Shown here piece after piece: positions 1,413 to 26,945 of a stretch of DNA of 26,945 nt; within the stretch, counting starts at the first letter, position 1, and each line of letters starts with the position of its first letter. This stretch comes from a virus. Location of the stretch: positions 1 through 26,945 of IMG/VR virus record IMGVR_UViG_3300037093_000174, one strand, 5' to 3'. The translations under genes were made by a program, and so were the position numbers. The notes below the pieces were generated by a model. That model was given only the letters and a program-made list of their open reading frames with translations, was not told the origin of the DNA and ran no database searches.

Positions 1413-1452
1413 GGGCCACCTCGTCTCTGCCGGGTTGTTCCACGCCTGAATG

Positions 1453-1469
1453 GTTAGGTCTGCCCTAAC
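1453..1469. promoter_or_regulatory. Operator-like palindrome upstream of the ParB-like gene
   Basis: Perfect 6-bp arms GTTAGG and CCTAAC are separated by TCTGC. The site lies 41 bp upstream of the ATG at 1412. The same arm pattern recurs at 1478-1494 and in the repressor/Cro intergenic region. It is probably bound by the CI-like or Cro-like protein encoded nearby; that is inference from the shared pattern. Confidence 0.6.
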
Positions 1470-1477
1470 TGTCTGTC

Positions 1478-1494
1478 AATAGGCCATACCTAAT
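1478..1494. promoter_or_regulatory. Second operator-like palindrome upstream of the ParB-like gene
   Basis: Arms AATAGG and CCTAAT match at 5 of 6 positions around the spacer CCATA. The centre is 25 bp from the centre of the 1453-1469 site, close to the 26-bp spacing of the pair at 2683-2725. From here to 1677 no gene or further structure was recognised. Confidence 0.55.
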
Positions 1495-1677
1495 TATGCA
1501 GCAACTAAGGACGCGTGTCGCTCCGGGTGGCTCGGGTAACCGATTCGGTCGATCGCGTGAACGGGCGCTAATGGCCCGATTCGCGGTTGGTACGCCTGCC
1601 GGTGACAGCCAGGTCTGGCGGATCAGGTTTTCGGGTATGTCTCCCCTTGGGAGGAAGGGAGGACGGTCGTGGCGCCC

Positions 1678-2160
1678 CTAGCGCTGAGTGCAAAGAGCCG
1701 AATCTGCTACGTCCCGCATGGTGGTTTTCGCTGAGGCCCTGACAAGTTGGTCGCTGCTTACTTGGTGACCAAAAGAGTCTCGAATATCGGAGATTAGGGT
1801 CCAACTGCAAACGAACCCCGTTCTGTCTTGTTGCGGCGTGTGGATATCGCGCCATCGATCCCGCTCGCAGAAGAACACGAATTTATCGTCGGCGTGCATC
1901 ACGGTGATTCGATGGGAGTCCGGCAGGGGCACGCCGCATCCTGCTCGGTTGGCGAGCTTGTCGAATTCATCGGAGAATCGATCCGCTCCGCTACTGCTCT
2001 CCTGCTTAGCCAGGCGTTCAACGTCCTCGATCGCGCCGGGTGCGTTGCAGGTCCAAGCGCCCCGTGCGATGCAGAACGTTTCTGGCGTCTCCGCAATTGC
2101 GGCGACCGCAGGAAACACCAGTGCGGCCAAGGCATAACCTAAGATTCTAGCTTTGCGCAT
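1678..2160 (-). CDS. Secreted protein of unknown function, probably disulfide-bonded
   Basis: The product has 160 residues. Residues 1-23 look like a Sec signal peptide: a charged start MRKAR, a hydrophobic core LGYALAALVFPAV, and a likely cleavage after AIA. The mature part contains six cysteines (in FCIARG, TCNAPG, AGCGVP, FFCERD, FVCSW and ALCTQR), enough for three disulfides in the periplasm. No family was recognised. The ATG lies four bases after the stop of a 23-residue ORF, which itself overlaps the repressor stop. It is therefore probably the last gene of the repressor operon and expressed in the lysogenic or maintained state. That position suggests a lysogenic-conversion or exclusion factor, but this rests on context only. 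Confidence 0.7.
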   Translation of the reverse strand: MRKARILGYALAALVFPAVAAIAETPETFCIARGAWTCNAPGAIEDVERLAKQESSSGADRFSDEFDKLANRAGCGVPLPDSHRITVMHADDKFVFFCERDRWRDIHTPQQDRTGFVCSWTLISDIRDSFGHQVSSDQLVRASAKTTMRDVADSALCTQR

Positions 2161-2163
2161 AAG

Positions 2164-2235
2164 CTACTCCGCGCCGCGGGTTGCCACTCGATCGAGCACG
2201 CCGAGCATTGCCTTGGCCTGGGTTTCGTCGGTCAT
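2164..2235 (-). CDS. 23-residue ORF coupled to the repressor gene
   Basis: This is a very short frame, MTDETQAKAMLGVLDRVATR followed by GAE. Its ATG overlaps the repressor stop in an ATGA arrangement, and its TAG stop lies three bases before the ATG of the secreted-protein gene. The exact fit between two genes and the overlap typical of translational coupling favour a real peptide. It may instead be a relay that carries ribosomes to the next gene. No family was recognised and the sequence is too short to judge by composition. Confidence 0.4.
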   Translation of the reverse strand: MTDETQAKAMLGVLDRVATRGAE

Positions 2236-2660
2236 TTCCGCCGCTCCCGCTTGATGGGGAGCTGCGTAACGCAGGCGACGCGCTGATCCGGTTTCGTTGC
2301 CTGGCTGGGCGTAGGCGCCGGCTTCGAGGCGGTCCTATGCATCGAGCCAAGGAAGCGTAGCAGCGCCGCCTGATCGTCGTCGCTTAGGTCGCGATAGAGG
2401 CGAAGGAATGCGAGTTCGTCGCCGGTCTGCGCCATGCGCTTGGCCTCTTCGTCTGCGCCGAACATGATCCAGCTCGGTGGTACGCCAAGCACTGCTGCGG
2501 CCCGACGCACGTTGGCCCATGTGATGCCGTGCTTGGAGTTGATCCAGCTATGGACGGTCGGTTGCGAGACCTTCGCTCTGCGCGCCAGGTCGGCGGCGCG
2601 GATGTTGGCCGCCTTCAGTGCCTGTGCAATTCGATCGCCCGGTCCTTCCGTCTTGTCCAT
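2232..2660 (-). CDS. CI-like XRE-family transcriptional repressor
   Basis: The product has 142 residues when started at the ATG at 2660; a longer frame reaches 2723 but would run over the operator. The N-terminus carries an XRE helix-turn-helix: IAQALKAANIRAADLARRAK, then VSQPTVHSWINSKHGI and WANVRRAAAVLGV. The C-terminal half is short and lacks the Ser-Lys autoproteolysis domain of lambda CI. Induction would therefore not follow classical RecA-stimulated cleavage. The gene diverges from a Cro-like gene at 2735, the usual lysis-lysogeny layout, and its likely operators fill the gap. The same operator type upstream of the ParB-like gene suggests a wider regulon. The specific family is unknown, but the repressor role is well supported by the fold and the divergent arrangement. 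Confidence 0.85.
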   Translation of the reverse strand: MDKTEGPGDRIAQALKAANIRAADLARRAKVSQPTVHSWINSKHGITWANVRRAAAVLGVPPSWIMFGADEEAKRMAQTGDELAFLRLYRDLSDDDQAALLRFLGSMHRTASKPAPTPSQATKPDQRVACVTQLPIKRERRK

Positions 2661-2682
2661 ATCTAAGGATGACGGTCCCACA

Positions 2683-2699
2683 ATTAGGGGGCACCTATT
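2683..2699. promoter_or_regulatory. Operator-like palindrome between repressor and Cro-like genes
   Basis: Arms ATTAGG and CCTATT match at 5 of 6 positions around GGGCA. The site is 23 bp upstream of the repressor ATG and is the same architecture as the two sites at 1453-1494. It is a likely repressor and Cro binding site. Confidence 0.6.
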
Positions 2700-2708
2700 G
2701 ACTCCGGA

Positions 2709-2725
2709 ATTAGGTGCAACCAAAG
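2709..2725. promoter_or_regulatory. Degenerate operator-like site before the Cro-like gene
   Basis: The left arm ATTAGG is intact. The right arm, CCAAAG after TGCAA, is degenerate. Its centre is 26 bp from that of the 2683-2699 site. It overlaps the alternative GTG start at 2714, which argues for the ATG at 2735 as the Cro start. Confidence 0.35.
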
Positions 2726-2734
2726 TTCCGGGGC

Positions 2735-3592: not shown

Positions 3593-4180
3593 ATGCTGAC
3601 CGCCGGCGCCGAGAGGCCGCCAAGCGGCGCGCCGGTCGCCGCGCCGTCGCAGCCTTCGGCCGCACCCCGCGCCGTCACCGAAACGGCAGCCGGTTCCGGC
3701 ACCGCCGCAGGGAGTGAGGGCAGCCCCTGGCCGGGGCGCACCGCCGAGCTGCTTGAACACTGGTACGGCCCGGGCGGGCCGACGCAGGTAGAGGTCGCCG
3801 CGAAGATGGGGCTGACCCCTGGCAGCGTCGCCGGGTGTCTGCATAGGCTCCGCAAGGCCAAGCAGCTCCTGCCCCGCGTGCCGCGCCCGCGCAAGCCGTG
3901 GCAGCCGTTGCTCGCCGAAGCCGAGGCAACCCGCGTCGCGCGGATGCGGGCGACGTTCGCGCAGAAGCGTCAGAGCCGGCAGGCGGCGCCGGCGTGGACC
4001 CCACCTACCCGACGCGGCCGGGTGGAAAGCTGCTGCTGGCCGATCGGTGAACCAGGGTCGCGGTCGTTCCGGTATTGCGGCGCGGACTCGCTGCCCGGGT
4101 ATCCCTGGTGCGCCGAGTGCGCCAGGCGGGCCTACGTTCCGACCCTGCACGCACCCCTCCGGCCGGCGGCAGCGCGGTGA
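3593..4180 (+). CDS. GcrA-family transcriptional regulator
   Basis: The product has 195 residues. GcrA proteins bind sigma70-RNA polymerase and act at promoters containing methylated GANTC sites, controlling the alphaproteobacterial cell cycle. Residues about 46-92 give the N-terminal helix-turn-helix: WPGRTAELLEHWY, TQVEVAAKMGLTPGSVAGCL, then HRL. Residues about 148-181 give the C-terminal signature: CWPIGEP, then RYCG, then CAEC and AY. A Pro/Ala-rich stretch of about 45 residues precedes the first domain, and a longer basic linker joins the two. Chromosomal GcrA is usually shorter and begins almost directly with the helix-turn-helix. The TGA overlaps the next ATG. As a mobile-element copy it may redirect host GcrA-dependent promoters or set phage genes to the cell cycle; this is inference. 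Confidence 0.85.
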   Translation: MLTAGAERPPSGAPVAAPSQPSAAPRAVTETAAGSGTAAGSEGSPWPGRTAELLEHWYGPGGPTQVEVAAKMGLTPGSVAGCLHRLRKAKQLLPRVPRPRKPWQPLLAEAEATRVARMRATFAQKRQSRQAAPAWTPPTRRGRVESCCWPIGEPGSRSFRYCGADSLPGYPWCAECARRAYVPTLHAPLRPAAAR

Positions 4181-4810: not shown

Positions 4811-5685
4811 TGGCGACGGGCCCCCCGGACCCGCCGAACGACGCGCCAAGCCTGGCGCCCGCGATCTCGGCCGCGCGGGCGAAGCTGGCTGAGCCGGAGC
4901 TGCCCGGCGTCGCGCTCACGCGGCAGCAGCTTATGGACGAGGCGAAGCGGCAGGCGCGGCGCGAACTCGCCGAGAGAGCCTCTCGGATGGGGGCCGCGGA
5001 GGTGCAGGCGCGGATCGAGGCCGCAGCCGCACAGCGCACCCTCGCCGCTGCTACGGTCACCAGCACGGCGGTTGCTGCTGCCCTGCCCTCCCACGCGGCG
5101 GCCGCGGCCGCGGGTCTGCCGGTCACCAAGCTGTCGCGCCCGAACGACAAGATCCAGCAGGCCGACCTTCGATCCGTGCGCAACGAGGTCGATATCGAAG
5201 GCTGGAAGCAACGCATGAAAGCAAAGGTCGAGGAACTGCGCGTGCTGGGCGACGTGCTTCCCAAGAACCTCAAGAGAGTGCTGAACCACATTGCGGAGTT
5301 GGTGGAGGCGAGCGGAAAAGGCGGCGCACAGCGGGCGCTCTCCACGATAGCGGACAGCATCGAGCTTGGCGTGAGGACGGTCCAAAAGGCGCTGGCCTTT
5401 GCTGTGGAACATGGTTTGCTGATCGTGATGAACGTGCCGAAGTGGGAAGACCGCGATCTCCGGCTCCAGGCCAACCTCTACCTGCTGAACGGCGCCTATA
5501 AGGACGTGGTCGTGCCGGAGCCTGCCGGCCCGTCCGACCGAACCACCTGGCGCCAACGCTACGTCGCGAAGCTGCTCGGCCTGTTCGCGCGGCCCGGTGA
5601 CGACAAGCGGCCCGGCGGCGTCAACACGTCGCCTCTGAGGGCAGCCGCCGGCGTCGTGGGCACCCTCCGCGCGGCCGAAACGTAA
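4810..5685 (+). CDS. Winged-helix DNA-binding protein, candidate replication initiator
   Basis: The product has 291 residues from the ATG overlapping the previous stop; a TTG one codon upstream is less likely. Residues about 35-100 are Ala/Arg/Glu-rich and probably helical or coiled-coil. The central part has LRVLGDVLPKNLKRVLNHIA, and a winged-helix pattern follows: ALSTIADSIELGVRTVQKAL then FAVEHGLLIV, which resembles the RTVQRAL motif of replication and GntR-like wings. It is the last gene of the GcrA-like operon, and a 416-bp gene-free stretch follows. Plasmid and phage initiators often precede their origin in this way. No specific Rep family was recognised, so a transcription factor role is equally possible. 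Confidence 0.6.
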   Translation: MATGPPDPPNDAPSLAPAISAARAKLAEPELPGVALTRQQLMDEAKRQARRELAERASRMGAAEVQARIEAAAAQRTLAAATVTSTAVAAALPSHAAAAAAGLPVTKLSRPNDKIQQADLRSVRNEVDIEGWKQRMKAKVEELRVLGDVLPKNLKRVLNHIAELVEASGKGGAQRALSTIADSIELGVRTVQKALAFAVEHGLLIVMNVPKWEDRDLRLQANLYLLNGAYKDVVVPEPAGPSDRTTWRQRYVAKLLGLFARPGDDKRPGGVNTSPLRAAAGVVGTLRAAET

Positions 5686-6639: not shown

Positions 6640-6641
6640 TT

Positions 6642-6697
6642 GCTATTGCGCTACCACGATAGCGTGGTATCAGGCTATCGTGATAGCAAAGTAGCAA
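6642..6697. repeat. Seven phased 8-bp GATAGC-type repeats before parA, likely parS/operator
   Basis: Consecutive 8-mers in strict register read GCTATTGC, GCTACCAC, GATAGCGT, GGTATCAG, GCTATCGT, GATAGCAA, AGTAGCAA. Units 1, 2 and 5 are in reverse orientation (GCTA), the others forward. The array ends five bases before the parA ATG. Ribbon-helix-helix partition proteins such as omega and ParG bind short repeats of this style in front of parA; assignment to the protein at 7338 is inference. Confidence 0.75.
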
Positions 6698-6702
6698 CCG
6701 AT

Positions 6703-7359
6703 ATGCGGACCGTCGCATTGCTCGCCCGGAAGGGCGGGACCGGGAAGACAACCCTCGCCGTGCATCTGGCTGTTCTCGCGGCCGAGGCCGGGCGGCGAGT
6801 GCTGCTGGTGGACACCGACCCGCAGCGCAGCGCCGGCGACTGGCGGCGCGCCCGCGAGTCGGACACCCCCCGCCTGGTCGAGTGCGTCGCGAAGCGCGTC
6901 CCGGAGGTCCTCGAGCTCGCCCGGCAGGAGGGCATCGACCTGGTCGTGGTGGACACGCGGCCGAGCGTCGAAGCCGAGACGGCGGAGATCGCGCGGCTCT
7001 CCGACCTGGTGCTGATCCCGACCGGCGCGGGGATCCTCGATCTTCGCGCGATCGCGGCGACGGCCGACATGGTGCGGTCGCTTCGGTCGGGTGCGCGCGC
7101 GACCATGATCGTGCTGAACGGGGTCCAGCCCTCCCCCGGCTTCGGTGAGAACGCCCTGACGGTCGAGGCGCGGCGCGCCCTGGCCGCCTATCGGATTCCG
7201 GTCGCGGACGTGGCGATCGGCCGGCGCGTCGCGTTCGCGCATGCGCTGATCGACGGCCGGTCGGTCACCGAGTTCGAACCGCGCGGCAAGGCCGCCCAGG
7301 AGCTTCGCAAGCTGTACACCCACATGGAGACGGTTCTATGGCCCGCCGCGCCCGCTTGA
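6703..7359 (+). CDS. parA: Type Ib ParA partition ATPase
   Basis: The product has 218 residues. The N-terminus holds the deviant Walker A motif KGGTGKTT with the signature lysine, followed by LLVDTDPQRSAGDW and the Walker A-prime segment LVVVDTRP. There is no N-terminal helix-turn-helix domain, which makes it a short, type Ib ParA. These ATPases coat the nucleoid and move plasmid complexes bound by the partner protein. Start choice: an upstream frame from 6640 would translate the repeat array, so the ATG at 6703 is preferred. The gene overlaps the partner gene at 7338 by 22 bp. Expression is probably repressed by the partner binding the upstream array. Confidence 0.92.
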   Translation: MRTVALLARKGGTGKTTLAVHLAVLAAEAGRRVLLVDTDPQRSAGDWRRARESDTPRLVECVAKRVPEVLELARQEGIDLVVVDTRPSVEAETAEIARLSDLVLIPTGAGILDLRAIAATADMVRSLRSGARATMIVLNGVQPSPGFGENALTVEARRALAAYRIPVADVAIGRRVAFAHALIDGRSVTEFEPRGKAAQELRKLYTHMETVLWPAAPA

Positions 7360-10436: not shown

Positions 10437-11309
10437 TTGGACAGCAAGACCGTGGAATCACAATCAGTTACGGCTCTTCCGGGCGGTGACGAGATGCTGA
10501 TTCGGGCGTGGCTTCATGGGCGGCCGAGGAACACGGTCACCGCCTATCGAAACGATACCTCCCGATTCCTGGCGCACGCCGGCAAGCCGCTGGCGGAGAT
10601 CGCGCTGGCCGACCTCCAGGCCTGGGACACTTCCCTGGTCAACGATCGGCCGGCCTCGCGGATGCGCCGGCTGTCAGCGGCCAAGTCGCTGCTGACCTTC
10701 GCGCACGGCCTGGGCGCCATCACCACGGACCCGGGCCGTGCGCTCCGCCTGACAAAGCCCACCGCCACCGCGGCCGAGCGGATTCTCTCGGAGGCTGACG
10801 TGGCGCGGATGATCGGAAGTGAGACGGATTCGAGTCGAAAGTGTCTCATCCGCCTGCTGTATCTCTGCGGCTTGCGGGCGTCGGAGGCCGCGGCGCTGTG
10901 CTGGCGTGACATGACGCCGGTCGGCAAGGCGGGCGCCGGCGAGGCGAAGATTCTCGGCAAGGGCGCCAAGCTGCGCACCGTCGGCATACCGGCGGCGCTG
11001 TGGCGCGACCTGGTTGCACTGAGCCCGGGGCGGCAGCCGAACGCTCCGGTGGTTCCAAGGTCGACCGGCCGCGCGTTCGACCGGCAAGCGGTGCACCGGG
11101 CAGTGAAGGCCGCGGCGCGGCGGGTCGGTTTGGGTAAATCCGTCTCGCCGCACTGGCTACGGCACAGCCATGCGAGCCACGCCCTCGATCGAGGGGCACC
11201 GCCGCAGGTGGTGCAAAAGGCGCTCGGCCATGCGTCGCTGGCGACGACGACTGGCTACCTGCATTCTCGCCGCGGCGATCACTCGGCGAGCTATCTGCCG
11301 GAGGTCTGA
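10437..11309 (+). CDS. XerC/XerD-like tyrosine recombinase
   Basis: The product has 290 residues from TTG 10437; GTG 10452 or ATG 10494 are alternative starts. Residues 1-110 resemble the SAM-like core-binding domain (AWLHGRPRNTVTAYRNDTSR). The catalytic set is complete: Arg147 in GLRASEAAALCW, Lys in GKGAKLR (about 175-178), His239 and Arg242 in PHWLRHSHAS, His265 in LGHASLATT and Tyr274 in TGYLH. Length and motifs fit XerC/D or a small phage integrase; the larger arm-binding domain of lambda-type integrases is absent. The dif-like site directly in front and the structured repeats behind it favour resolution or integration at a short site. Proximity to the site also suggests the protein could regulate its own expression. 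Confidence 0.9.
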   Translation: MDSKTVESQSVTALPGGDEMLIRAWLHGRPRNTVTAYRNDTSRFLAHAGKPLAEIALADLQAWDTSLVNDRPASRMRRLSAAKSLLTFAHGLGAITTDPGRALRLTKPTATAAERILSEADVARMIGSETDSSRKCLIRLLYLCGLRASEAAALCWRDMTPVGKAGAGEAKILGKGAKLRTVGIPAALWRDLVALSPGRQPNAPVVPRSTGRAFDRQAVHRAVKAAARRVGLGKSVSPHWLRHSHASHALDRGAPPQVVQKALGHASLATTTGYLHSRRGDHSASYLPEV

Positions 11310-13359: not shown

Positions 13360-14697
13360 ATGGCGGGCTTCTGGCGGCGCATTGCCGACTTCGCGAACCG
13401 ACGCGCGGCCGACGCCGGCGACGACAAGCTCTGGGGCGAGTGGGCCGGGGGAGGGCAGTCGAACTCCGGCGTGCCGGTGAACTCGATCACGGCGATGCGG
13501 CATGTGGCCTGCATGGCGTGCGTCTCGATCCTCGCCTGCGACGTGGCGAAAATCCCGTTCGACGTTTACCGGCGGCTGCCGGATGGCGGCAAGGAGGTCT
13601 TCAAGGATCATCCGCTGCATCGCCTGATGCGCAACCCGAACAACTGGCAGACAGCTTTCGAGTTCAAGGAAATGCTGCAAGCCTCGCTGGTGCTGCGCGG
13701 CAATGGCTATGCGCCGGTGGTGAGGAACGGCCGCGGCGATCCGCTCTACCTGGTGCCGGTCCATCCTGACCGGGTTGGGCTGTTTGAAGCGCCGAGCGGC
13801 GAGTACTTCTACGCGGTGACGCGGAACGGGCTGCACGAGATGGCAATGCTGCGGGAGCACCCGCTGCTGATCCCATCGGCCGATATGTTCCACCTGCGTT
13901 GGCTGCCGATGTACAACTCGCTGTTGGGTTCGTCTCGCCTGTCGCTGGTGAGAGAGAGCCTGGGCCTGGGGATCGGCCTCGAAGAACACCAGGCCCGCTT
14001 TGTCGGGCAGGGAGCGCGCACCGGCGGCGTGCTGTCCACCGACCAAAAGTTCGCCAGCAAGGAAGTCCGCGAGCAGCTCCGCGAGGAGTGGCAGCGCCTG
14101 CAAGCGGGTCCGCGCAACTCGGGTGCAACGGCGATCTTGGAGCAGGGCCTGAAATGGCAGGCACTCGGCCTCTCGATGGTCGATAGCCAGTTCATCGAGT
14201 CCCGCAACTTCCAGCTTCGTGACATCGCCCGCGCCTTCGACGTGCCGCCCTACAAGCTGGCGATCGAGGGCGAAACCGAAGGCCCGGCGATGGTGCAGAT
14301 GGGCCAGCAGTACCTCAATGGTCCGATCTCGGGGTATTGCGAACGGTGGAAAGCCAAGGGCGAGCAGTTCTACGAACTCGACGGCGACGACACGTTCCTT
14401 GATTGGGACTATGGGCACTTCCTCAAGGCAGACCTGCTTTCGCGCTTCACCGCGTATCGGCAGGCGGTCGGTGGGCCGTGGATGAAGGTCAACGAGGCAC
14501 GGCGGGCCGAGGGTCTGTCGAGCGTGCCGGACGGCGACACGGTGCAGCAGGCGGTGAACATGGCGCCGCTGGGCTGGGTGCCGTCTGCCAAGGACGGCAC
14601 GGGCGATCAGGGCAGCAACCAGACCGGCGTCCCGGGTGAGGGTGGCAACGGTGACCCGATGCGGGATCCTGCCAACGACGCGGCGCCGGGCACCTGA
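13360..14697 (+). CDS. HK97-type phage portal protein
   Basis: The product has 445 residues. Portals form the dodecameric ring at the head vertex through which DNA is packaged. Recognisable segments in order are MRHVACMACVSILACDVAKI near the start and PFDVYRR, then HPLHRLMRNPNNWQTAFEF and VLRGNGYAPV. Next come YLVPVHPDRV, FHLRWLPMYNSLLGSSRLS, and near 290 ARAFDVPPYKLA. The length is normal for Phage_portal proteins of HK97-like siphophages. The ATG at 13360 has CCGGAG upstream. The last 55 residues are Gly/Asp/Pro-rich and probably disordered. Unusually, no prohead protease or capsid gene follows; the next genes lie on the other strand. Confidence 0.93.
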   Translation: MAGFWRRIADFANRRAADAGDDKLWGEWAGGGQSNSGVPVNSITAMRHVACMACVSILACDVAKIPFDVYRRLPDGGKEVFKDHPLHRLMRNPNNWQTAFEFKEMLQASLVLRGNGYAPVVRNGRGDPLYLVPVHPDRVGLFEAPSGEYFYAVTRNGLHEMAMLREHPLLIPSADMFHLRWLPMYNSLLGSSRLSLVRESLGLGIGLEEHQARFVGQGARTGGVLSTDQKFASKEVREQLREEWQRLQAGPRNSGATAILEQGLKWQALGLSMVDSQFIESRNFQLRDIARAFDVPPYKLAIEGETEGPAMVQMGQQYLNGPISGYCERWKAKGEQFYELDGDDTFLDWDYGHFLKADLLSRFTAYRQAVGGPWMKVNEARRAEGLSSVPDGDTVQQAVNMAPLGWVPSAKDGTGDQGSNQTGVPGEGGNGDPMRDPANDAAPGT

Positions 14698-16484: not shown

Positions 16485-18164
16485 TCACGCGGCCACGTCG
16501 AGGAAGCTGGCCTGGATGGCAACCGATCGCAGCGCGACCTCGATCCGGCGAAGGTCGGTTTGCATGACGGCCAACAGGTCGGCCAGCGTTCCCGCCCGGT
16601 GCGGGCTGGTCTTGCGCACCGCGACGATCTGGTTTTCCTGAATGCCGGACCGCAGCAGCGCGGCGATCCGTTCAACGTGCGCCTCGAAGGCGTTGGCCGC
16701 GTCGCGGTCCGCCTTGGTCGGCGCCGGCGGTGCGTCGGGCATCAGCGTGAGCTGGGCCTCGGCATCGACCAGGGCGGCGGTGTTCACCCGCAGGTCGCTC
16801 CAGCTCTTGCAAGAGCCGGTGCGGATGGCGTTGAACAGCGTGTCTTGTCCGCGCGGCGACAGCTTGGTCATGTAGGCGGCTTCGGATGGTTTCAGGTTGC
16901 CGCTTGCGAGCAGCCCTTGGTACTCCTCGCGCAGTTTCAGCAGGTCGGTGCGTTCGATGATTCGGTACGTCGCCTTGCCGATCCGGGCGCCGAGTTGCTC
17001 GGGCGTCCAGCCGGTCGCTTCCATCAACGCCTGATAGGACTTCGCTTGTTCAAGTTGGGTGACGTCCTGCCGTTGATCGTTCTCGATGATCTGCATGACG
17101 CGGAGCGTCGCCATGTCCTGCGGCGCCCGCACGATCGCCCGGATGGTCCGGGCACCGTTGATCTGGTGGGCACGCCAGCGCCGCTCACCGACCGCGATCA
17201 TGTAAGGCGTGCTGCCGGTGGTCGAGGGACGGATGACGATCGGCTGTAGCAGACCGTCCGCCGTGATCGAGGCAGCAAGTTCGCGGAGCGCGTTCGGCTC
17301 GAATGTCTTGCGGGGCTGGTCGGGGTCGGGTTCGATCTGATCCATCGGAATGTCGTGGATCAGCGCGTCCGGTTCATCGACTTTGCCGGCGGGCGGGGCA
17401 GGCTGCTTGGCCGCAAAGATCAGCCGCGTGGCAACGCCGGTGCCGCTCTCGCGGAAGGTGTCGGGGGGCAGCTTCTCGGTGTCGGCGCCGATTTCATCGA
17501 TCCACTGGCGGAACTCGGTGGCGGCTCGATCCTGGCGAAAGAAAGGACCCTCGGAGCAAATCGCGATCAGGCGTCCGCCCGGCCGCACGAATTTCCATGC
17601 CGCGCGAATGTGCTTGATGTCGAGGCCGTTGGCGAACGGCGGGTTCATCACCACCGCCTCGTAGAGCGAGGCGTCCACCGCGCAGAACACGTCAAAGTCT
17701 TCCTGGCACACCGACAGGTCGCCGCCGATCGCGCGGAGGGCCGTGCAGTTCACCGGGTCGATCTCGACCGCGGTCACCATCGCACCGCGCGCGATCAGGT
17801 GGCGGACGATCCGGCCGGTGCCGGCGCTCGGCTCGAGCGCGCGCTCGTCAGAGCCGACGCCGGACAGCAGCACCATGCGGTGCGCAAGGTCATCCGGCGT
17901 CTCGAAGAAGCCGAGGGTCTTCTTGGCGTCCACGACAACGCCATCCTCGACTGCCTTGCCGATCAGTTCGCGCGGGTCGAAGGGAAAGACGTGGCCCTTG
18001 ACCTTGCGGTCCCACTTGCCGCGCGCGGCCGTCAGCACCTTGGCGACGCGGAGGTAGGTTTCGCGGTCGAGTTGTTCGGGGAGAGTGAGGACGTTCCCGG
18101 CGAACGTGCTGCGTTCAAGGATCGGGATCACGTCGGCTGGCACTCGCGTTTTGGTAGCGGACAT
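16485..18164 (-). CDS. N6-adenine DNA methyltransferase fused to a ParB domain
   Basis: The product has 559 residues. The N-terminal half is an N6-adenine methyltransferase: SAM motif EPSAGTG at 111-117, VEIDP after it, and catalytic NPPF at 174-177. From about 268 a full ParB/RepB/Spo0J unit follows: PDQPRKTFEP, LLQPIVIRP, GERRWRAHQ (326-334), and then ENDQRQDVTQLEQAKSYQAL with the ParB helix-turn-helix (LGARIGKATYRIIERT). The C-terminus to 559 is helical and unassigned. There is no specificity subunit or nuclease nearby, so it is probably an orphan enzyme that shields phage DNA, with ParB giving DNA binding or CTPase-type clamping. The gene leads a leftward operon; the shared leader element (18180-18190) lies before its ATG. 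Confidence 0.9.
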   Translation of the reverse strand: MSATKTRVPADVIPILERSTFAGNVLTLPEQLDRETYLRVAKVLTAARGKWDRKVKGHVFPFDPRELIGKAVEDGVVVDAKKTLGFFETPDDLAHRMVLLSGVGSDERALEPSAGTGRIVRHLIARGAMVTAVEIDPVNCTALRAIGGDLSVCQEDFDVFCAVDASLYEAVVMNPPFANGLDIKHIRAAWKFVRPGGRLIAICSEGPFFRQDRAATEFRQWIDEIGADTEKLPPDTFRESGTGVATRLIFAAKQPAPPAGKVDEPDALIHDIPMDQIEPDPDQPRKTFEPNALRELAASITADGLLQPIVIRPSTTGSTPYMIAVGERRWRAHQINGARTIRAIVRAPQDMATLRVMQIIENDQRQDVTQLEQAKSYQALMEATGWTPEQLGARIGKATYRIIERTDLLKLREEYQGLLASGNLKPSEAAYMTKLSPRGQDTLFNAIRTGSCKSWSDLRVNTAALVDAEAQLTLMPDAPPAPTKADRDAANAFEAHVERIAALLRSGIQENQIVAVRKTSPHRAGTLADLLAVMQTDLRRIEVALRSVAIQASFLDVAA

Positions 18165-23062: not shown

Positions 23063-24604
23063 TTGAAACTCGACACATTTACCGGCGTGCTGTTCAAGGG
23101 CGGACTGAAGGCGCCGGCTGCGAAGTTCCTCGTCGGTGCGCTCCGGCGATCCCGGGAGCTTGGCGTCACCCGGTTCATCAACCCGTGCGCCGGCGTGTTC
23201 GGACTCGCCCAGGCCGCGGTGTCCGCCGGCTTCGATCCCTCGAAGATCATCACCGGCGATACCGGCCTGGTCTCCGCGATCATCGGCACGTCGATCGCCG
23301 GACGGCCGCTTGCCGACCTCGGCATCCGCTACCTGGACGAACGGCTGGCGCCGGCGGCGGCGTTCGCCGGCACGAAGATCGAGGCGGGCGCGGCGCTCGC
23401 TGCGATCAAGGCGTGCCAATACAAAACCGAAAGCCAGTACACGCGGCTGCTGTTGGAGGACATCACCTCCGATTGGGAACGCGCGGCGTCTGCACTCCAG
23501 GAACAGATCGACGCGAGGGTGACCGCGTTGGACGGCTGCACCTTCGAGATCGAGGATATGTGGGCGCAGATCAAGCAGGGGATTGACGATCCGCACGCGG
23601 CGATCTGCCTTTTCCCACCGGCCTACCGCAAGGGCTATGACCGTATGTTCCCGGTCGAGGGTCGCATCGCCTGGAGCGAGCCGAAGGTCCCGCAGTTCGA
23701 TCCCGCCTTGCAGCCGAAGTTGTACGATATGCTGCGCGATGGCGCCGCGCTGGCGGTGTGGGCGTTCTATGGCGAGTTGCCGGAGGATGGCGCCGATCGC
23801 GCGATTTTCAGCGAGTGGGCGCCGAACCGGAAGGTCCCGCATTATTGGCTGGCGAACCGGCCGGAGGGCTTGCCCAAGGGCGTCCACACGCGCCGGGAAA
23901 CCAAGCTCGGGCCTTCGGAGTTTCCCCTCTGGCCGAATGACCGGGCGGTGACCGCGGATACCGTGGTGCGGTTCGTTGAAACGAGCAAGTCGTGCGCGCT
24001 GTACTATCGCGACCTGTTCGCGCACAAGCTCGGCGTGACGCGGGCCGAGCGGTATTTCCTCGTGCTGCTCGACGGTCACCTGATGAGCGTGTTCGGCGTG
24101 TTCTTCGATCAGGTCGAGCGCGGCGTGTCCGAGATCGTGCATGAAACCTTCGGCTTCACCGTGCCGAACGCGGTTCATGCGAGACTGAGCCGCTTGTTTA
24201 TGATGTTGCTGGTGAGTGGTGACGCGCGGGCCTATTTCCGGTCGATGGTCAGGAACCCGCTGCGATCCGTGAGCAGTCTGCAAACAACCTGCATCGCGCC
24301 GCACCCGGAGGTCAAAACCGACCGGGGCATCCTGAAACTGCGCGAGCGAACGAAGATGCCGGATGGCCGGTTCAAGCTGGTCTATGCGGCGCCGTTCCCT
24401 GACCGCAGCTTTGCCGACCGGGTTGCCGAGTGGCTCAACAAAGACGGCAAGGTGGCGCCACGCGCCCGAGAGGAATTTGATGGCGGAGTTCATAGCGGCG
24501 GTCGGGCCGAACCTGGAGATTTGGAAGGTTCATCCCGAGGAACTCCGCGAGCAGGACGTGAACGCGCGCGTCATGCCGCCGGAAATGCTGGAGCGGCTGG
24601 CTGA
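23063..24604 (+). CDS. Putative antirestriction adenine methyltransferase
   Basis: The product has 513 residues from TTG 23063. The opening GVLFKGGLKAPAAKFLVGAL followed by TRFINPCAGVFGLA (residues 38-49) matches the N-terminus of phage proteins annotated as putative antirestriction adenine methyltransferases, as I know them; NPCAG is the SAM-binding loop. LFPPAYRKGYDRMF (FPPAY at 184-188) stands for the catalytic NPPY motif. Asn is replaced by Phe, which is unusual and may alter activity. Modification of phage DNA against host restriction is the likely role. The last 42 residues overlap the next gene by 125 bp and look like out-of-frame, low-complexity sequence. The natural end is probably near residue 471, so the overlap may follow from loss of a stop. 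It heads the terminase operon. Confidence 0.75.
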   Translation: MKLDTFTGVLFKGGLKAPAAKFLVGALRRSRELGVTRFINPCAGVFGLAQAAVSAGFDPSKIITGDTGLVSAIIGTSIAGRPLADLGIRYLDERLAPAAAFAGTKIEAGAALAAIKACQYKTESQYTRLLLEDITSDWERAASALQEQIDARVTALDGCTFEIEDMWAQIKQGIDDPHAAICLFPPAYRKGYDRMFPVEGRIAWSEPKVPQFDPALQPKLYDMLRDGAALAVWAFYGELPEDGADRAIFSEWAPNRKVPHYWLANRPEGLPKGVHTRRETKLGPSEFPLWPNDRAVTADTVVRFVETSKSCALYYRDLFAHKLGVTRAERYFLVLLDGHLMSVFGVFFDQVERGVSEIVHETFGFTVPNAVHARLSRLFMMLLVSGDARAYFRSMVRNPLRSVSSLQTTCIAPHPEVKTDRGILKLRERTKMPDGRFKLVYAAPFPDRSFADRVAEWLNKDGKVAPRAREEFDGGVHSGGRAEPGDLEGSSRGTPRAGRERARHAAGNAGAAG

Positions 24605-25271
24605 CACCATCCGCAAGGAACAACGCCTCGAAAGCCTGCCTCTCACTGTTAAACGCAAGAACTTCTTTGAGGTCATGTCGGGCCACCATCGCACCCGGGC
24701 GGTGCGCATGGCCGGGCTTACCGAACTGTACGTGCTGGCCGACACGCGGAACCTGACCCGCTCCCAGGTGGTTGCGAAGCAGATCGCGCACAACCGCATC
24801 GCCGGCAGCGACGATCGGGAGACGCTCGCGACGCTGTTCAAGGAGATCAGCCGGATTGACGACATCCTAGAGTCCTACGTGACCGCGGCGGACTTCGGTG
24901 ACATCGCCTCGGCTGACAGCATTTCGATCCCGCCGATCGCGGCCATCCTGCCGTGGTATCTCGTACACTTCGCGTTCCTACCGGCAGCGATCGAGAAATT
25001 TGAACTGCTGGAAGCGCAGATCAAGAAGATACCGAAGGACACCGACCTGGTGGGCGTCGCGTCGGCCGACATCTATCCGCGCTTTGCCGAGGCGGTCGGA
25101 ACCATCACGAAGATCGAGAACGTGCGGGCGATCGGAGCGGTTTTGACTCGGATGATCGACATCGCGCTGGCGCATTTTGCCGCTTTGGAAGGGCCACATG
25201 AAGGGCCGCAAGCCAACGCCGACACACTTGAAGCTGGTAACCGGGAATCCGGGGCGCCGGCCGCTCAATGA
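24480..25271 (+). CDS. ParB-like protein preceding the terminase
   Basis: The product has 263 residues from ATG 24480, preceded by AGAGGA. Residues about 15-90 form a ParB/sulfiredoxin-type domain: VHPEELREQDVNARVMPPEM, LERLADTIRKEQRLESLPL and EVMSGHHRTRAVRMAGL, in which GHHRTRA replaces GERR. LTRSQVVAKQIAHNRIAG resembles the downstream helix pair. The remainder is helical and not recognised. ParB-like proteins beside methyltransferase and terminase genes occur in many phages, with unproven roles; nuclease activity has been proposed for some. It overlaps its upstream neighbour by 125 bp and the small terminase by 74 bp, so translation of the three is probably linked. Confidence 0.8.
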   Translation: MAEFIAAVGPNLEIWKVHPEELREQDVNARVMPPEMLERLADTIRKEQRLESLPLTVKRKNFFEVMSGHHRTRAVRMAGLTELYVLADTRNLTRSQVVAKQIAHNRIAGSDDRETLATLFKEISRIDDILESYVTAADFGDIASADSISIPPIAAILPWYLVHFAFLPAAIEKFELLEAQIKKIPKDTDLVGVASADIYPRFAEAVGTITKIENVRAIGAVLTRMIDIALAHFAALEGPHEGPQANADTLEAGNRESGAPAAQ

Positions 25272-25662
25272 CCGGGAGGCGAAGGTTGCCCCGGCGGTGC
25301 CGCCGCCGCCGGCGCATCTGAACGGCGACGCACTCAAGGAATGGCGGCGCATCACGCGCCTGCTGGCCGAGGCCGGGCTGATGACAAAGCTCGACCTGGC
25401 AATCGTCGCCAGCTACTGCGTTGCGTGGGCGAGGTGGATCGAGTGCGAGCGCGAGGTCACGAGCAAGGGGATGATCCTGCGCTCGCCAAACGGTTTGCCG
25501 ATCTACTCGCCTTACCTGACGATCGCGAACCGGGCGATGGAGCAGTTGCGCCAGTGCGCCGAGCAGATCGGGCTGTCCGGCTCGGCGCGATCGCGAATCA
25601 AGGCTGCGGAGGTGGCGCCGCCATCCGACCCGGCCGAAGACTTCTTGCGTGGCAGGGCGTAG
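25198..25662 (+). CDS. terS: Phage terminase small subunit
   Basis: The product has 154 residues from ATG 25198. MKGRKPTPTHLKLVTGNPGR followed by RPLNDREAKV is the classical N-terminus of P27-type (Terminase_4) small subunits. EWRRITRLLAEAGLMTKLDL and IVASYCVAWARWIECEREV continue it, and PIYSPYLTIANRAMEQLRQC is the usual centre. The small subunit recognises the packaging site on phage DNA and regulates the large subunit. The length is normal. It overlaps the ParB-like gene by 74 bp and the large subunit by 14 bp. Confidence 0.93.
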   Translation: MKGRKPTPTHLKLVTGNPGRRPLNDREAKVAPAVPPPPAHLNGDALKEWRRITRLLAEAGLMTKLDLAIVASYCVAWARWIECEREVTSKGMILRSPNGLPIYSPYLTIANRAMEQLRQCAEQIGLSGSARSRIKAAEVAPPSDPAEDFLRGRA

Positions 25663-26945
25663 GCGGCGGGCGAAGCCGCAAGACACTGTCGAGGCGTACG
25701 CCCGGGCGGTGGTCGAGAACAAGGTGGTCACCGGCCGCCTGGTTCGCCTCGCTTGCGAGCGCCACCTGCGCGACCTGGTTGACGGGCCGGCGCGGGGCCT
25801 GCGCTGGGACCGGGAGACGGCCCAGCGGGCGATTGATTTCTTTCCGGCCGTGCTGCGTCACAGCAAGGGGCAATACGCGGGCCAGCCGTTCAACCTGCTC
25901 GAATGGGAACAATTCGTCGTTGGCTCGATCTTCGGCTGGAAGCTGCTGCTGCCGGACAAGAAGATCGAGGTCAGGCGCTTCCGCACGGCGTTCGTGTCCA
26001 CCGCGCGGAAAAACGGCAAATCGACCATTGAGGCAGGCATCGGCCTCAAGGCGCTGATAGACGAAGGCGAGCCTGGCGCGGAAATCTACTCGGCCGCGAC
26101 GACGCGCGATCAGGCCCGGATCGTGTTCACCGAAGCGGAGCGCATGCGGGCGGGCTCGCCGGCGCTGCGCCGGCGGATCGTCAAGACGACGAACAACCTG
26201 GCGGTCCTGCCGACCGCATCGTGGTTCCGGCCGCTCTCGGCCGACACGTCGACCATGGACGGCTTGAACGTGTTCGTCGCGCTGGTGGACGAACTGCACG
26301 AGCATCCCGACGCCGGCGTGATCGAGAAACTCGACACCGGGATGGGCGCGCGGCTCCAGCCGCTGATGTACGAAACCACGACGGCGGGCGTGAGCCGGAC
26401 TTCGGTCTGCTACCTGCATTGGGATTTCTCGGCAAAGGTCCTGGAGGGCGTGATCCCTCTGGTGACCGCGGATCGGTGGTTCGCCTACGTCGCGACCGTT
26501 GACGAAGGCGACGACTGGCAAGACGAACTGGCCTGGCGCAAGGCCAACCCCTCGCTCGGCGTTGTCCTCCAGATCGAGGACCTGCGCGCGGAGGTCGCGC
26601 TCGCGCTGGAGATGCCGACGCGGCAGAACTCCATCCGGCGCCTGCGGCTCAATCAGTGGACCCAGCAGCTTGTGCGCTGGATCCCGATGGAGGTCTGGGC
26701 GGACGGGGCCGCGCCGATCGACGCGGAGGCGCTGCGGGGCCGGAGGTGCCTCGCGGGCCTCGACCTGGCGCGGATCAACGACCTGTCGTCGCTGGCGCTG
26801 CTGTTTCCCCCGGTGAGTGACGGGGAGAAGTGGAAACTGCTGTGGCGGCACTGGTGCCCGGCCGACAACATCGAAGAACGGTCGCGGCGCGACCGCGCGC
26901 CCTACCAGGTCTGGCGCGACCAGGGCCATTTGATCGCGACCGAAG
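25649..26945 (+). CDS. terL: Phage terminase large subunit (partial, right edge)
   Basis: The frame is open from GTG 25649 to the window edge, 432 codons. The ATPase domain shows Walker A ARKNGKST (119-126) and Walker B ALVDELHE (211-218). YETTTAG is the coupling motif. LAGLDLARINDLSSLALL starts the RNase H-like nuclease domain with its first Asp; the remaining catalytic residues lie outside the window. This is the HK97-like Terminase_1 type that packages DNA into the prohead and cuts it. Upstream GAAGA is weak, so translation probably depends on coupling with the small subunit, which it overlaps by 14 bp. Confidence 0.93.
   Translation, partial: MAGRRRRAKPQDTVEAYARAVVENKVVTGRLVRLACERHLRDLVDGPARGLRWDRETAQRAIDFFPAVLRHSKGQYAGQPFNLLEWEQFVVGSIFGWKLLLPDKKIEVRRFRTAFVSTARKNGKSTIEAGIGLKALIDEGEPGAEIYSAATTRDQARIVFTEAERMRAGSPALRRRIVKTTNNLAVLPTASWFRPLSADTSTMDGLNVFVALVDELHEHPDAGVIEKLDTGMGARLQPLMYETTTAGVSRTSVCYLHWDFSAKVLEGVIPLVTADRWFAYVATVDEGDDWQDELAWRKANPSLGVVLQIEDLRAEVALALEMPTRQNSIRRLRLNQWTQQLVRWIPMEVWADGAAPIDAEALRGRRCLAGLDLARINDLSSLALLFPPVSDGEKWKLLWRHWCPADNIEERSRRDRAPYQVWRDQGHLIATE

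Follow-up and report, generated by a model that had tools for sequence, protein, structure and literature searches.

A probable lambda-style immunity region with Rac-type operators and a ParB-like gene at the head of its leftward operon

Results

The window analysed here is the whole of a viral DNA record of 26,945 bases. Near its left end, a repressor gene (positions 2232-2660, minus strand) encodes a 142-aa protein with an HTH_3 domain and no S24 peptidase domain. It is followed on the plus strand by a divergent gene (2735-2962) for a Cro of the YdaS family (PF15943, E=8.5e-14, above the cut-off). On the other side of the repressor gene, a minus-strand ORF (1678-2160) encodes a 160-aa protein without a family match which, judged by eye from its sequence, is probably exported. 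This ORF occupies the place of rex in lambda, and the equivalent place is empty in the closest relative found (L011, whose repressor is 77% identical to that of the window). Further left lies a minus-strand ParB-like gene (3-1412; PF02195, ParB_N), of which 470 of 567 codons fall within the window. Downstream of Cro, a plus-strand gene at 3593-4180 encodes a GcrA cell-cycle regulator domain (PF07750), which suggests an alphaproteobacterial host.

A preliminary description had reported palindromes of the type TTAGG-N5-CCTAA in pairs, 25 and 26 bp apart, at two places, and this proved exact. The left pair consists of a perfect palindrome at 1454-1468 (TTAGGTCTGCCCTAA; OL1) and a site at 1479-1493 (ATAGGCCATACCTAA; OL2), which start 25 bp apart. 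The right pair is formed by 2684-2698 (TTAGGGGGCACCTAT; OR2) and 2710-2724 (TTAGGTGCAACCAAA; OR1), with starts 26 bp apart, and all sites other than OL1 carry one arm mismatch. The record-wide search that had been suggested returned these four sites only at no more than one mismatch, with no random copies elsewhere at that threshold, and a reversed control pattern had no match in the 26,945 bases at the same stringency. In first-order Markov shuffles, a mean of 0.085 sites with at least 9 of the 10 arm bases was expected, compared to four observed, and 0.003 site pairs at a spacing of 22-30 bp, compared to two observed. A weaker third left site (OL3; 1494-1508, TTATGCAGCAACTAA on the plus strand, 8 of 10 arm bases) abuts OL2. 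Because this site holds the same offset in L011 (-29 from TTGAC, with an equal score), OL is predicted to comprise three sites.

Both pairs frame a TTGAC sequence alike (TTAGG-N5-CCTATTGAC-N6/7-TTAGG) and, read along the direction of transcription, the left and right regions are the same module. The minus-strand copy, TTAGGTATGGCCTATTGACAGACAGTTAGGGCAGACCTAACCA, leads to the ParB-like gene (ATG at 1412), and the plus-strand copy, TTAGGGGGCACCTATTGACTCCGGAATTAGGTGCAACCAAAGT, to Cro (ATG at 2735). Because each pair frames a TTGAC -35 box, we assign the left pair as the predicted OL/PL, directed leftward to the ParB-like gene, and the right pair as the predicted OR/PR, directed rightward to Cro. 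Putative PL (1451-1479, minus strand) has the -35 box TTGACA (1479-1474), a 17-nt spacer and a weak -10 box, TAACCA (1456-1451); putative PR (2698-2726, plus strand) has TTGACT (2698-2703), a 17-nt spacer and a weak CAAAGT (2721-2726). At each promoter one operator abuts the -35 box (OL2, which is kept in L011, or OR2), and the other (OL1 or OR1) fills the spacer and extends into the -10 box. The -10 hexamers are poor, and it is here that the promoter assignment is weakest; a simple promoter scan of the PL strand gave only another weak promoter, GCGACA-17-CATAAT, at 1521-1493.

Since the repressor gene sits between the OL/PL and OR/PR modules and Cro diverges from it, the geometry is that of lambda (OL/PL - cargo gene - repressor - OR/PR - cro). 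As in lambdoid phages, the same operators lie on both sides of the repressor gene, the divergent early promoters are predicted to overlap them, and a divergent Cro adjoins the repressor. Because the operators are the same on both sides, and their geometry is kept in relatives, the repressor/Cro regulon very probably includes the leftward ParB-like gene, as had been proposed.

The window ends inside the ParB-like gene. A complete copy was found at positions 86-1789 of a second contig (IMGVR_UViG_3300037349_000205, L005), whose overlap with the window is identical. In this contig the ParB-like gene (567 aa) is followed by ORFs of 73, 77 and 196 aa, a 104-aa excisionase-like ORF and a tyrosine integrase gene. 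The excisionase-like gene has no Pfam match, and its name rests on position and sequence. Both here and in L011 the leftward operon ends, in lambdoid fashion, with the excisionase-like gene and then integrase. Because these two genes lie beyond the ParB-like gene, the operators are predicted to govern an int-xis operon like that of lambda, headed by the ParB-like gene; judging from gene order, PL would transcribe the entire operon through integrase. The integrase that closes the PL operon is not the only tyrosine recombinase, as the window encodes a second one (10437-11309, plus strand).

L011 provided a natural test of what the left operators serve. The arms of both pairs, the 25 and 26 bp spacings and the third site are kept in this relative and the N5 centres are changed, as in the OL1 equivalent (TTAGGATGAACCTAA), which has the same offset and a different centre. 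Sites with at most one mismatch are confined to the two pairs in the L011 record. The ParB-like gene of L011 (L011:5679-5891) has suffered an in-frame internal deletion, which joins its first 35 codons to about 34 from the end. L011 retains the PL operators, homologues of the 77- and 196-aa ORFs, the excisionase-like gene and integrase, and a tRNA-Lys gene lies directly beyond the integrase, as expected for an integrated prophage. The ParB-like gene is thus mostly deleted with the PL operators kept, and the operators are therefore not kept for ParB alone.

We next consider the ParB-like protein itself. Sequence and model both assign the ParB CTPase fold to its N-terminal part. The structure model (mean pLDDT 63) supports the N-terminal ParB fold only, its C-terminal half being unreliable, and its fold matches include ParB structures, those of KorB among them. 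Distant relatives of the protein are found on alphaproteobacterial plasmids. Of a ParABS system, the N-terminal CTPase-fold domain of ParB (PF02195, ParB structures) is present. No Pfam match was obtained for a ParB HTH domain, and a query for canonical chromosomal parS with up to three mismatches, outside which more different sequences would fall, found none. No parA adjoins the gene: the sole parA in the window (6640-7359) is separated from it by about 5 kb, is on the opposite strand and is paired with an RHH gene. This ParA-like ATPase gene overlaps the RHH gene (PF20605; 6640-7610, plus strand), the DNA being 75% identical in L011, and the two may be a separate partition-like pair in an integrating phage. 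Another minus-strand gene (16485-18164) encodes a 559-aa protein with ParB_N and HTH_ParB domains and a long N-terminal part that looks methyltransferase-like by eye.

These properties bear on whether the ParB-like gene could be a phage-plasmid partition or maintenance gene, its coupling to the repressor serving stable prophage inheritance. The CTPase-clamp fold of the N-domain, the plasmid-borne relatives and the ParA and RHH pair in the window would suit such a role. However, a gene serving maintenance would need to be expressed in the lysogen, whereas the ParB-like gene sits behind a PL that would be repressed there. The lack of a canonical parS (at up to three mismatches), of a Pfam ParB HTH match and of an adjoining ParA, the integrase at the operon end, and the tRNA-Lys directly beyond the integrase of L011, in which the ParB-like gene is mostly deleted, also speak against it, and we consider partition improbable. 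The "maintenance or late function" of the preliminary description is not supported: the gene is predicted to be an early leftward PL gene, in an operon ending in the excisionase-like gene and integrase. No paper on a ParB in a leftward operon was found in the literature.

ParB relatives such as KorB function as repressors. The presence of KorB structures among the fold matches, and the location of the left sites directly upstream of the ParB-like gene, could indicate that the ParB-like protein regulates its own gene through the left pair, which would then merely resemble the OR sites. This is very unlikely, since the arms, spacing and promoter framing of the left sites equal those of OR, L011 retains the left sites despite the loss of most of ParB, and in RacR prophages other genes follow this PL module.

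The last point comes from a scan of viral contigs for TTAGG-N5-CCTATTGAC-N5..9-TTAGG, which found the module in at least 119 viral DNA stretches. Among the matches listed, many modules form divergent pairs, approximately 625 bp apart, around a 158-aa repressor that is RacR by NCBIfam and is annotated together with ydaS in E. coli genomes. In the Rac prophage, RacR represses ydaS, and thermal shift assays, EMSA and ChIP-qPCR have shown, both in vitro and in vivo, that it binds GCCTAA/TTAGGC repeats located between racR and ydaS (PMC5700373); a letter has argued that YdaS is the Cro of Rac and YdaT its CII (PMC5917428). We assigned modules to RacR-type repressors by position. The PL spacing CCTATTGAC-N6-TTAGG was found in 84/84 modules behind 158-aa repressors and in 7/7 behind a form joined to an S24 domain (91/91), and the PR spacing was CCTATTGAC-N7-TTAGG in 57, N6 in 6 and N5 in 9 (the S24-joined form). 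Many of these loci are near-identical, so that the counts are not independent and correspond to 107 distinct modules. Every assigned module points in the expected direction, and none the wrong way. The window and L011 have the same spacings, N6 at PL and N7 at PR, and carry operators of the RacR type. That the palindromes arose by chance, as short sites of which three in four carry a mismatch, can be dismissed, since the excess over the shuffled expectation, the conservation in L011 and the occurrence of the same design in other phages, in about 100 distinct modules, already contradict it.

The repressors served by these operators are diverse. At some loci the repressor is of another S24 type ("RRGAGYL", about 232 aa). 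In L043, L049, L071, L073, L075 and L093, an RacR-like HTH and an S24 peptidase are present in one protein of about 350-366 aa with the same operators, the peptidase domain having been tested in L049 only. This fusion is possibly a cleavable form of a repressor that has no peptidase in Rac. A recognition-helix motif, [HN][DSQ]W[ILM][KN], was present at 101/125 operator-bearing loci compared to 2/81 controls, a difference that relatedness inflates and that gives only a hint that the motif is tied to the operators. Most cro-family relatives (L132-L210) lack these operators. The window repressor had no match to the RacR model NF049929, with which RacR of other loci scores 242-266 bits, and its similarity to RacR is restricted to the HTH region. 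Searches for close repressor relatives gave weak HTH matches only in genome_contigs and the L011 record only in viral_contigs. No solved structures were found for the window repressor or RacR, and a repressor structure predicted from two sequences (mean pLDDT 47) was discarded.

ParB-family genes were also found near other phage integrases. In E. coli NZ_CP145662.1 (L216), the cargo (rex) place next to racR is taken by a type I restriction endonuclease gene (L216:4312-5466); PL comes next, and beyond it lie a small ORF, a gene for a "ParB/RepB/Spo0J family partition protein", integrase and a tRNA-Ser gene. The OL pair of this prophage is at 5537 and 5562 (25 bp apart) and its OR pair at 2337 and 2362; its 261-aa ParB-family protein is about 26% identical, over 123 aa, to a relative in L006 (E ~1e-4). 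Synechococcus phage MinM1 has an S24 gene, a ParB-family gene (41% identity to that of the window) and integrase, and L009 has the order HTH regulator, ParB-like gene, integrase. As far as gene order and predicted operators indicate, some E. coli prophages, of which NZ_CP145662.1 is an example, too have a ParB-family gene downstream of a RacR-type PL, and the arrangement is not peculiar to the phage studied here.

Elsewhere in the record, the portal gene precedes the terminase genes by about 10 kb (13360-14697, 25177-26944), with a leftward gene block between them. This unusual order possibly reflects a circular permutation, a mosaic or an assembly join. A plus-strand gene at 23063-24604 encodes a fusion of phage DNA adenine methylase-like and phage GNAT-like domains (PF22555, PF22559).

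Discussion

We propose, with a probability of about 0.9, that the locus is a lambda-style immunity region of a temperate, integrating phage with operators of the E. coli Rac-prophage (RacR/YdaS) type. The sites, their pairing and geometry, the operon content and the conservation are shown by the sequence, and repressor binding, repression, promoter activity and the role of the ParB-like protein are inferred. In the lysogen, repressor dimers would occupy OL1 and OL2 (and perhaps OL3) as well as OR1 and OR2, covering the -35 box, spacer and -10 box of PL and PR. The bound repressor would silence the leftward operon (ParB-like gene, small ORFs, excisionase-like gene and integrase) and the rightward operon (Cro and beyond). 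On loss of repressor PL and PR would fire, with Cro presumably returning to the same sites.

The ParB-like protein would then be an early gene product that is repressed in the lysogen. Because the gene would be off in the lysogen, behind repressed PL, an early DNA-related function fits better than prophage maintenance, and we consider the protein most likely to be a factor with the CTPase fold that binds or processes early phage DNA, and not a plasmid-partition ParB. The tie to the lysogeny decision that had been suggested is present, but is nothing special, being normal for any gene of a PL operon. We predict that the protein acts early after infection or induction, which moves the search for its function away from partition.

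What is modestly new is the apparent use of Rac-type operators by a very divergent repressor, and the recurrence of a ParB gene between repressor and integrase. Four repressor forms can be listed: RacR of about 158 aa, RacR-S24 of about 365 aa, the "RRGAGYL" S24 form of about 232 aa and the 142-aa type of the window. We suggest tentatively, and at somewhat less than even odds, that one operator code and layout (PL pair 25 bp apart, PR pair mostly 26 bp) has been kept across at least these four, along with a recurrent early ParB-family function. If so, phages with hardly alignable repressors might share or cross-regulate immunity, and immunity across very different repressors could be tested by repressor swaps on one reporter. 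A puzzling operator link thereby becomes a readable lambda-type switch, and an uncultivated phage is tied to the experimentally studied Rac prophage.

The closest known system is RacR-YdaS-YdaT of E. coli Rac and Rac-like prophages. The window shares with it the TTAGG/CCTAA arms, operators framing a TTGAC -35 box, a PL pair 25 bp and a PR pair 26 bp apart, a divergent YdaS-family Cro, a short repressor without peptidase, and a PL directed towards integrase. It differs in its 142-aa repressor, which falls outside the RacR model and is similar in the HTH only, in the 63-72% GC of its record, in other operator centres and in weak -10 boxes. With lambda (OL/PL - rex - cI - OR/PR - cro) it has in common the logic and gene order, a cargo gene between repressor and PL, a leftward operon ending in excisionase and integrase, and a rightward cro. 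Unlike in lambda, however, OL consists of two strong sites and one weak site, a ParB-like gene comes first on the left, the repressor has no SOS-cleavable domain, and operators and repressor are themselves different. The E. coli RacR prophage of NZ_CP145662.1 likewise combines a RacR-type PL with an early ParB-family gene and an integrase at the operon end beside a tRNA gene, but its ParB-family protein is only 261 aa long, is very distant from that of the window, and is encoded by the second gene of the operon.
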